DNA of 40,637 nucleotides from Bdellovibrio bacteriovorus (lineage in GTDB: Bacteria; Bdellovibrionota; Bdellovibrionia; Bdellovibrionales; Bdellovibrionaceae): contig NZ_LUKD01000010.1 in the NCBI RefSeq assembly GCF_001592745.1, positions 1-40,637 of the forward strand. The letters run 5' to 3'. A model generated the notes under the pieces. The model made no database searches. It was given only the letters and a program-made list of their open reading frames with translations, and was not told where the DNA came from. A program made the position numbers and the translations under genes. Shown here one piece after another: positions 6,741 through 9,030 of the stretch (position 1 is the first letter of the stretch; each line of letters begins with the position of its first letter).

Positions 6741-8171
6741 ATGGCTCTCAGACAGACCATGAACCTGAGCCAGTCTCTGGTGATCACGCCGCAGCTGCAA
6801 CAGGCGATCAAGCTTTTGCAGATGTCGCGTATGGAATTGGAGTCTGCGGTTCGTTCTGAGCTGGAAGAAAATCCTATTCTTGAAGAAGCAGAAACCCTCA
6901 AGGAAGAAGATCTTCAGCGCACAAAAGAAGCTGCAACTGAAGTGGAGCACTCTGAAGCTCCTGATCACAACGTTCAAGATCCCCAGAAGCAAGATGAGTT
7001 CGAGTGGGAATCCTACATCGAAGCCAACCAAAAGCCTCCTCAATCAGGAATGGCGGGCTCTGAAGAGATCATGAACTATGAGAACGTCATCACGGCGTCT
7101 CAAACTCTTCATGACCATCTTTATTGGCAAGTAAAAATGAACGGCTTTTCCGAAGAAGAGGAAAGAGCCGCAGACGCTTTGATCGGCGCGATCGATGACG
7201 AAGGCTATATCAAAGTTCCCCTTGAGCAAATCGCCGAAGAAGAAAAGCTGGATCTGGGTCTTTTGGAAGACACATTGACGTTGATTCACGAGTTCGATCC
7301 TCCGGGTGTCGGTGCTCGTGATCTAAAAGAGTGCCTTTTGATTCAAGCAAAGCACTTGGAAGAAGACACTCATGATCTTGTCAGCTTGATCAATAATCAC
7401 CTAAAGGATCTTGAAAAAAAGAACTACGAAGCGATCGCAAAAGCCTTAAGCCGTGACGTTGAAGACGTTATCGAGATGTGTAAAATCATCTATGCGATGG
7501 ACCCGAAGCCGGGCCGTGCTTTCGTTAGCAGTGACACACACTATGTGACACCGGACGTTTACGTGTACAAAGTGGGCGACGATTACGTTGTCTCTTTGAA
7601 CGAAGACGGTTTACCTCGTTTGAAGATTTCGAATTTCTATAAAAACATGCTCAAAGGTGGAAAATCCACCGGCGATAAAACTCAAGACTATATCCAAGAC
7701 AAATTGCGTTCCGCAGTTTGGTTGATTAAGTCAATCCATCAAAGACAGCGTACGATTTACAAGGTGGCTGAATCCATCGTAAAACACCAGCGCGAGTTCT
7801 TTGAAAAAGGATCTGAGTATCTAAAACCGATGGTTTTGCGAGATATCGCCAATGACATCGGCATGCATGAATCGACAGTGAGTCGTGTGACGACGGCGAA
7901 ATACGTGCACACACCGCAAGGGATTTACGAGCTAAAATACTTCTTTAACTCAGGGATCAGTTCTTCAGATGGTGATGCTTTGGCGTCCGAGTCGGTGAAG
8001 ATTAAGATCAAAGATCTTGTAGCTAAAGAAGATCCTAAGAATCCGCTTTCGGATCAGAAGATTGTGGATCTTCTGAAGGTGGAGGGGATTCAGATTGCTC
8101 GTCGTACGGTTGCTAAATACCGCGATATGCTTAAGATTCTTCCTTCTTCTCAGCGTAAGAAGTACTTCTAG
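6741..8171 (+). CDS. rpoN: RNA polymerase sigma-54 factor RpoN
   Basis: The 476-residue protein has full sigma-54 layout: Gln/Leu-rich region I at the N-terminus (LSQSLVITPQLQQAIKLLQM, the activator-interacting part), an acidic region II (about 45-110), a core-binding domain, a helix-turn-helix region (DIANDIGMHESTVSRVT), and the RpoN box ARRTVAKYRD at 453-462 that reads the -24 element. Length matches the family (about 470-490). The ATG follows AAAGGA at a usable distance. A TATAAT hexamer at 6695-6700, overlapping the lptB stop, could be part of a private promoter, but no good -35 element accompanies it. Sigma-54 genes need AAA+ enhancer-binding activators, none of which lie in this window. 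Confidence 0.97.
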   Translation: MALRQTMNLSQSLVITPQLQQAIKLLQMSRMELESAVRSELEENPILEEAETLKEEDLQRTKEAATEVEHSEAPDHNVQDPQKQDEFEWESYIEANQKPPQSGMAGSEEIMNYENVITASQTLHDHLYWQVKMNGFSEEEERAADALIGAIDDEGYIKVPLEQIAEEEKLDLGLLEDTLTLIHEFDPPGVGARDLKECLLIQAKHLEEDTHDLVSLINNHLKDLEKKNYEAIAKALSRDVEDVIEMCKIIYAMDPKPGRAFVSSDTHYVTPDVYVYKVGDDYVVSLNEDGLPRLKISNFYKNMLKGGKSTGDKTQDYIQDKLRSAVWLIKSIHQRQRTIYKVAESIVKHQREFFEKGSEYLKPMVLRDIANDIGMHESTVSRVTTAKYVHTPQGIYELKYFFNSGISSSDGDALASESVKIKIKDLVAKEDPKNPLSDQKIVDLLKVEGIQIARRTVAKYRDMLKILPSSQRKKYF

Positions 8172-8189: not shown

Positions 8190-8342
8190 GTTTGCTTGAA
8201 GGGGGGGCTTGGTAAAACCCCATGCTTCGAGCGGCACGCATCCGTGCTCAGTCGCCGCCGCGCTTTGCGCGGTTCGCGCCATCGTGGCGCCGGCGAAGGC
8301 CGCTCTTCGATGGGGTTTTACCAAGCCCCCCTTCAAGCAAAC
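8190..8342. repeat. Large structured inverted repeat (giant hairpin with three apical hairpins)
   Basis: Two arms of 32-33 bases are complementary end to end: 8190-8222 (starting GTTTGCTTGAAG) and 8311-8342 (ending CTTCAAGCAAAC). The only difference is one extra G in the left arm (seven G against six C). Inside lies a second 7-bp stem, GAGCGGC (8229-8235) with GCCGCTC (8299-8305), and three GC-rich hairpins: GCACG-CATC-CGTGC (8234-8247), CCGCGC-TTT-GCGCGG (8258-8272) and GCGCC-ATCGT-GGCGC (8276-8290). The whole is about 153 bp and sits 18 bases after the rpoN stop. No T-run follows, so it is not a plain terminator. It resembles palindromic dispersed elements or a structured RNA. Open frames across it (for example 8184-8486) have no homology-like features and are judged spurious. 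Confidence 0.8.
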
Positions 8343-8460
8343 TTTGTTCTCGGTATCTGCCTTTCGTTCTGCTTTTCTGGAATAAGAAGTTCATCTTCGG
8401 TGCTTCATTACATTTGTCTTTTTTTGAGCTGGATCTGTTTTGGATTTTGCGTGGCTAAAC

Positions 8461-8532: not shown

Positions 8533-9030
8533 GTGGATTTGAAGAATTTGATTCGGGATGTGCCTAATTTTCCTAAAGAGGGGATTCTTTTTCGGGATAT
8601 GTCGCCGCTTTTGCAAAATCCGGAGGCGATGGATTTTGTTTCTCGGAATTTGGTGAAGGATGTGGATCTTTCGCAGATTGATTATTTTGCGGGGATTGAG
8701 TCTCGTGGGTTTATTTTGGCGGCGCATATGGCGGCGACTCACAAAAAAGGTTTTCTGCCGATTCGTAAGGCGGGGAAGTTGCCTCCTCCTACGTTGAAAC
8801 TTTCCTATGCGCTAGAGTATGGTTCGGCAGAGATTGAACTTCCTTTGGGGAATTCGCGCATTATGATTATTGATGATGTTTTGGCTACGGGTGGGACTTT
8901 GCAGGCGGCGATTGATCTTAGCAAGCTTGCTGGTTATGACGTGAAAGCGGTGGCGGTTCTAGTGAACCTGACATTTCTGAATAAGATGAAATTTAATAAC
9001 AAAGAGGTACATTCCCTTGTTCAATATTAA
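8533..9030 (+). CDS. apt: Adenine phosphoribosyltransferase
   Basis: The frame is open from 8440, but the gene should start at GTG 8533, which follows AGGAG (8521-8525) by seven bases and gives a product that aligns from the first residue with the family (165 residues; typical 170-180). It converts adenine and PRPP to AMP. The PRPP-binding loop IMIIDDVLATGGT is at about 110-122, and FAGIESRGFILA (53-63) and the flexible loop around PIRKAGKLP are typical of Apt. It overlaps the next gene, a nucleosidase-like protein that would release adenine, so the pair makes metabolic sense. Codon use is odd in the first third: CGG and GGG are frequent here and rare in neighbouring genes. Confidence 0.93.
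   Translation: MDLKNLIRDVPNFPKEGILFRDMSPLLQNPEAMDFVSRNLVKDVDLSQIDYFAGIESRGFILAAHMAATHKKGFLPIRKAGKLPPPTLKLSYALEYGSAEIELPLGNSRIMIIDDVLATGGTLQAAIDLSKLAGYDVKAVAVLVNLTFLNKMKFNNKEVHSLVQY

Follow-up and report, generated by a model that had tools for sequence, protein, structure and literature searches.

The window, a 40,637-nt stretch of Bdellovibrio bacteriovorus DNA, carries rpoN (sigma-54) on its plus strand at 6741..8171; the gene was identified from its sequence, in agreement with a syntenic search. Its stop codon is followed after 18 nt by a large hairpin (8190..8342), and downstream lies a plus-strand open reading frame (8533..9030) that is probably apt (adenine phosphoribosyltransferase-like). 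The hairpin is real: its minimum free energy is -111.5 kcal/mol, compared with -69.1 +/- 4.5 in dinucleotide shuffles (z -9.45; 0/200 as good). The left arm (8190..8223, 34 nt) has one unpaired extra G and otherwise pairs with its complement, the right arm (8310..8342, 33 nt); a preliminary description of the locus was correct about the complementarity and the extra G, but not about the length, which it gave as 32-33 bases. Folding located the second stem and the three small hairpins that it had placed between the arms at 8229-8305, a 77-base region that we call the head. The head is closed by a 7-bp second stem (GAGCGGC, 8229-8235, with GCCGCTC, 8299-8305), inside which lie head hairpin 1 (GCATCCGTGC, 8238..8247) and an inner 6-bp stem (5' side 8252..8257, 3' side 8291..8296) carrying head hairpins 2 (CCGCGCTTTGCGCGG, 8258..8272) and 3 (GCGCCATCGTGGCGC, 8276..8290). 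Arms and head, with the stems and hairpins of the latter, are annotated without a strand of their own. Between 8050 and 8600 we found neither an intrinsic terminator nor a sigma-70-like promoter on either strand, and no U-tract directly behind a GC-rich hairpin. No Rfam family reached its gathering score for the hairpin (best 14 bits, E 0.22, cut-off 380).

The head belongs to a repeat family. A 173-base query matched about 20 other places in the same genome (G000), nearly all of these matches being confined to the head (query bases 45-130). A head model (R1) built from 21 copies, and used to search this genome and its relatives, matches the rpoN head at 86.7 bits (E 1.7e-15) and finds 23 head copies in the genome. 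The family is present in 22 of the 24 genomes of the genus, this one included, with up to 28 copies per genome. One neighbouring genus of the same family has four head copies, the remaining searched genomes of other genera have none, and an exact scan of GTDB genomes returned Bdellovibrio records only. Covariation analysis, which the preliminary description had suggested, revealed two-sided covariation in the head: 98.6% of cells are paired, and ten pairs change two-sidedly vs 6.2 in shuffles. In the family alignment, hairpin 1 (helix 2) has 96.7% of its cells paired; the inner stem (helix 3) has three pairs that change two-sidedly; hairpin 2 (helix 4) has four such changes and is 100% paired; and hairpin 3 corresponds to helix 5. 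Copies of 150-235 bp occur as dispersed singles and pairs, and in many genomes there are convergent pairs 200-730 bp apart. Within one genome, copies have lineage-specific heads in common and differ in arms and flanks. Since the rpoN copy stands at the same position in two sister species, with paired changes in its arms, it is not a single, unconserved occurrence. Its arms differ once between G000 and the sister species G001 and at several positions, all fully paired, from G009; the inner head in G001 is of a different subtype from that in G000. The rpoN hairpin is thus one member of a dispersed, Bdellovibrio-specific family of long hairpins located at gene 3' ends, in which the three-hairpin head is conserved and the self-complementary arms are particular to each locus; the earlier guess of a palindromic dispersed element was right. 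With about two dozen copies in this genome, the repeat is apparently undescribed, and Bdellovibrio is not mentioned in three papers on REPs and stem-loops (PMC3733652, PMC12306157, PMC2267715). A phage or plasmid origin of the family was dropped, as no match was found. Placement ordered by replichore was also rejected: the strands looked ordered on the largest G000 contig, but they are mixed in G012, G018 and G020. Of additional note, a short repeat of about 19-35 nt lies, in both orientations, 100-400 nt to the right of several G000 copies (L003, L004, L009, L016, L020, L047).

The arms behave quite differently from the head. In a first set of 94 copies (this genome and relatives) and in a second set of 42 copies from four other species, the arms, about 34 bp long (interquartile 31-39), are near-perfect complements and are unrelated from locus to locus. 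The left arm of the rpoN copy (8190-8223) matched its own genome at significant E-values only at itself and its complement (8310-8346). Because each of nine arms searched in G000 and G001 likewise had significant matches only to its own left and right arm, we rejected, for these nine, the idea that arms serve as guides for, or were copied from, other loci. G001 shares about 20 of the 23 G000 sites, and comparison of the two shows how the arms change. Outside four heavily changed loci, two-sided Watson-Crick changes number 24 vs 17 single-sided ones, seven of the latter falling in one decayed arm; at the four loci with largely replaced arms, the numbers are 32 and 18. At one of the replaced loci (L020 in G000, L125 in G001), the left flank is 99% identical, and on both sides the inner arm is changed at most of its bases. 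At another site (L010 in G000, L088 in G001), the left arm is common to both species and the matching right arm is present in one of them only. In 6 of 20 sister pairs the head is nearer to a paralog than to its ortholog, which would be explained by exchange of heads between copies or import from other lineages. Separately, in L163, L174-L177 and L186 (G012, G021), single G.A mismatches are spaced along the arms at intervals of three to five bp.

Such turnover could be read as the work of mutation on its own. The elements would then be old repeats without function, whose arms are kept palindromic by template switching between them during replication, that is, by quasi-palindrome correction. 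The excess of two-sided over single changes between the sister species and the L010/L088 pair are what this process would leave behind. However, the heads are conserved across the genus, whole arms have been replaced by sequence that has no donor in the genome, and correction alone does not predict the G.A and G.T mismatches confined to one strand that are described below. This strand bias disfavours template switching as the sole cause, and we consider the explanation improbable. We put at a similarly low level the idea of a dedicated Bdellovibrio process that renews arms, in which, at a fixed site and around a conserved head, both arms would be rewritten together into a new sequence, unique to the locus and of perfect complementarity; such a process might serve at least two unrelated head types, the present family and the CTCGGACAGTCCTCG...CTGTGGAACTCGG type.

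The mismatches in the arms point to one strand. Read on the strand antisense to rpoN (the minus strand of the window), they comprise 84 G.T vs 19 A.C and 118 G.A vs 9 C.T, counts in which orthologous copies are not independent. The second set, which was collected after the pattern had been seen in the first, gives by itself 39 G.T vs 2 A.C and 77 G.A vs 4 C.T; the same lean is seen in 33 of 35 informative elements. Among three subsets, the G.A bias is found in all; the G.T bias is found in the two from outside the own genome and is absent within it. Pairing is thus kept on one strand, and from the G.T and G.A bias we take the minus strand of the window to be the folding strand of the whole element at 8190..8342. 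The calculated stabilities separate DNA from RNA in an argument that depends on nearest-neighbour parameters and on related sequences: DNA parameters make the minus-type strand the stabler of the two in 105 of 136 whole elements, and RNA parameters do so in 63 of the 136. For arms alone, it is favoured 93 vs 37 as DNA and 70 vs 63 as RNA, and for heads alone in 119/136 and 75/136, respectively. The mismatch bias across the family and the DNA energies are consistent with strand-specific recognition of folded single-stranded DNA, and the selected form is more likely to be the minus strand folded as single-stranded DNA.

The same bias bears on whether the element is a structured non-coding RNA, or part of one, encoded on the minus strand in many copies, in which the head would bind a ligand or protein and the long arm would be a scaffold helix. 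The conserved head and its two-sided changes would suit such an RNA, as would the preference for G.U over A.C on the minus-type strand and the position of the hairpin in an IS of G013, where it lies on the transposase-sense strand behind the transposase gene. In typical RNA helices, G.A mismatches are not in excess of G.U; here they exceed them, and the RNA energies express no strand preference. Together with about 20 copies per genome, the lack of a promoter-like site around the window copy and the lack of an Rfam relative, this makes the RNA reading rather unlikely in our view.

The position of the copies relative to genes has to be considered next. Among first-set copies for which both flanking genes were called, the neighbours are convergent in 36 cases, tandem in 47 and divergent in one. 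Many copies have a stop codon no more than about 10-20 nt before their start. The distance from the upstream stop codon to the start of the head falls into two classes, 40-77 nt and 104-170 nt, the longer one having an intrinsic terminator with a T-tract in between. On the left side, 36 of 133 copies have a terminator oriented towards the element vs 11 in the control direction, with its T-tract mostly 60-89 nt from the head; there is no terminator excess on the right (24 vs 25). Such placement would be expected of an element acting on the sense strand at the 3' ends of genes, as an mRNA-stabilising hairpin, a transcription barrier or an insulator between neighbours, and the sense RNA would form a fold of about equal stability. 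The rpoN site in other species gives a mixed answer: it is occupied by other long hairpins or ordinary terminators, as this explanation would have it, but in some species by nothing. About a quarter of the copies (the 36 of 133) stand at a fixed distance past the terminator of the upstream gene and therefore outside its mRNA, which speaks against mRNA protection as a general role; moreover, the hairpin has no U-tract behind it and the strand bias is on the opposite strand. We regard a 3'-end function of this kind as unlikely. The earlier proposal that the hairpin shields the 3' end of rpoN mRNA is, for the same reasons, not supported as a general function, since numerous copies come only after the intrinsic terminator of their host gene and the strand with protected pairing is antisense to rpoN. 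At the rpoN locus itself there is no terminator between gene and hairpin, and there, specifically, the hairpin may shield the mRNA end.

The other hairpins behind rpoN are observations of their own. A second type with the same architecture (L226, L227, L229, L230 and L231, in G012, G010, G019, G006 and G019) has conserved AAACTCTCGGACAGTCCTCG ... CTGTGGAACTCGGTTT near the tip and perfect arms of about 30 bp that are different at each locus. In several species it stands behind rpoN, where the present genome has the family with the three-hairpin head. A third type behind rpoN (L101, L106, L116; G016, G018, G013) has arms like GGTTGGTGAAAACGGCTCA...TGAACCGTTTTGACCAACC.

Evidence on mobility comes from a few sites. 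In G013, three copies (L202-L204) have more than 400 bp in common, as each lies inside an IS1-like element of about 0.84-1.23 kb bounded by the inverted ends AAACTGATCC. The transposase frame is intact (292 aa) in one of the three elements and damaged in the other two, and the assignment to IS1 depends on a weak Pfam match. This association is found in one species only and may be hitch-hiking. Except in G013, no sequence beyond the hairpin is common to copies, and shared flanks were rejected as part of the repeat. Among the sister-genome sites compared, we saw no transposition into a clean empty site. Two G000 sites lack an element that is present in G001, and their 6-8 bp overlaps, which might be target duplications left by insertion, lie within T-tracts and equally fit deletion between such tracts, so that the two sites are ambiguous. 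One site in G009 holds a decayed remnant of the element. Classification as RAYT-mobilised was rejected: no REP tag stands at a fixed position of the hairpin feet, no Y1 (RAYT-type) gene lies next to a family copy, and G008, G013 and G017 have no Y1 genes despite 11, 15 and 6 copies. G000 has two Y1 (RAYT-like) transposase genes on contig C1 (L023, L024); the long inverted repeats on either side of them, of type GGTRCCTGCTTC, are another palindrome.

Based on these findings, we tentatively propose a mechanism, to which we would give a little less than an even chance: the family would be a non-autonomous mobile palindromic element whose folded DNA is recognised strand-specifically by a putative enzyme, working like REPINs, IS200/IS605 ends or attC sites. 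It is the minus strand that would fold, as single-stranded DNA, and the putative enzyme, acting in trans, would recognise the head and the loops at its foot; the arms would need only to be a helix. Elements would come to rest immediately after stop codons or terminators, where their presence is tolerated. The copies would now be mostly vertically inherited, with heads and arms turning over by exchange and paired change. A function maintained by the host would fit the stable sites and the low copy number of about 20 equally well.

Our family resembles REP, BIME and REPIN sequences, as defined in PMC3733652 and PMC8266576, in being intergenic, palindromic and multi-copy, in standing behind genes and in often forming inverted pairs; when tested, the copies were extragenic and near gene 3' ends. 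REP/REPIN sequences are also recognised by an enzyme as strand-specific folded DNA with stem mismatches (PMC8266576). However, the present elements measure 150-235 bp vs 20-40 for REPs, and only their head is conserved between copies, not the arms. Among 268 hairpin feet, 14 contain GTAG/CTAC and 34 contain CGTC/GACG, at no fixed position, and neither GTAG nor CGTC is present at the foot of the window copy. No RAYT flanks the copies, and the family is present in genomes without Y1 transposases. Because REP tag, conserved stem and RAYT linkage were all looked for and none was found, we do not file the family as REP. Like a MITE, it is a non-autonomous dispersed palindrome, carried in G013 between the ends of an IS1-like element; unlike MITEs, its copies outside G013 are without the AAACTGATCC terminal repeats and show no conserved termini. 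Integron attC sites are long imperfect palindromes of variable sequence and conserved structure, one strand of which is recognised as folded DNA. Our elements recall them in being long imperfect palindromes that keep structure while sequence varies and prefer one strand, but here the head is conserved, the stem is variable and there are no cassettes. By inspection, the feet (GTTTGC/GCAAAC or GATTTG/CAAATC) contain no R boxes (RYYYAAC/GTTRRRY). Identity as an intrinsic terminator, an attC site or an Rfam RNA was tested in each case and rejected for lack of the defining features. The stem-loop families of bacterial genomes (PMC1590033, PMC2267715) are likewise repeated, intergenic and joined by a common secondary structure, but they were built on similarity of stem-loop sequence, and the stems here have no similarity between copies.

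The ordinary label of dispersed palindromic repeat fits the family, which is REPIN/MITE-like in behaviour. With some 20 natural replicates in each genome of a culturable predator, it can be used to study DNA folding in vivo, palindrome maintenance and the choice of targets at terminators, and it offers a natural test of how palindromes disperse in bacteria and remain palindromic. It uncouples what a dispersed hairpin needs in structure from what it needs in sequence, and tells which strand folds. What is unusual is the conserved tip, set against arms that are free but paired, together with the clear strand asymmetry: known bacterial dispersed palindromes keep the sequence of their stem, whereas here the stem is kept as a helix only and it is the tip that is kept in sequence.
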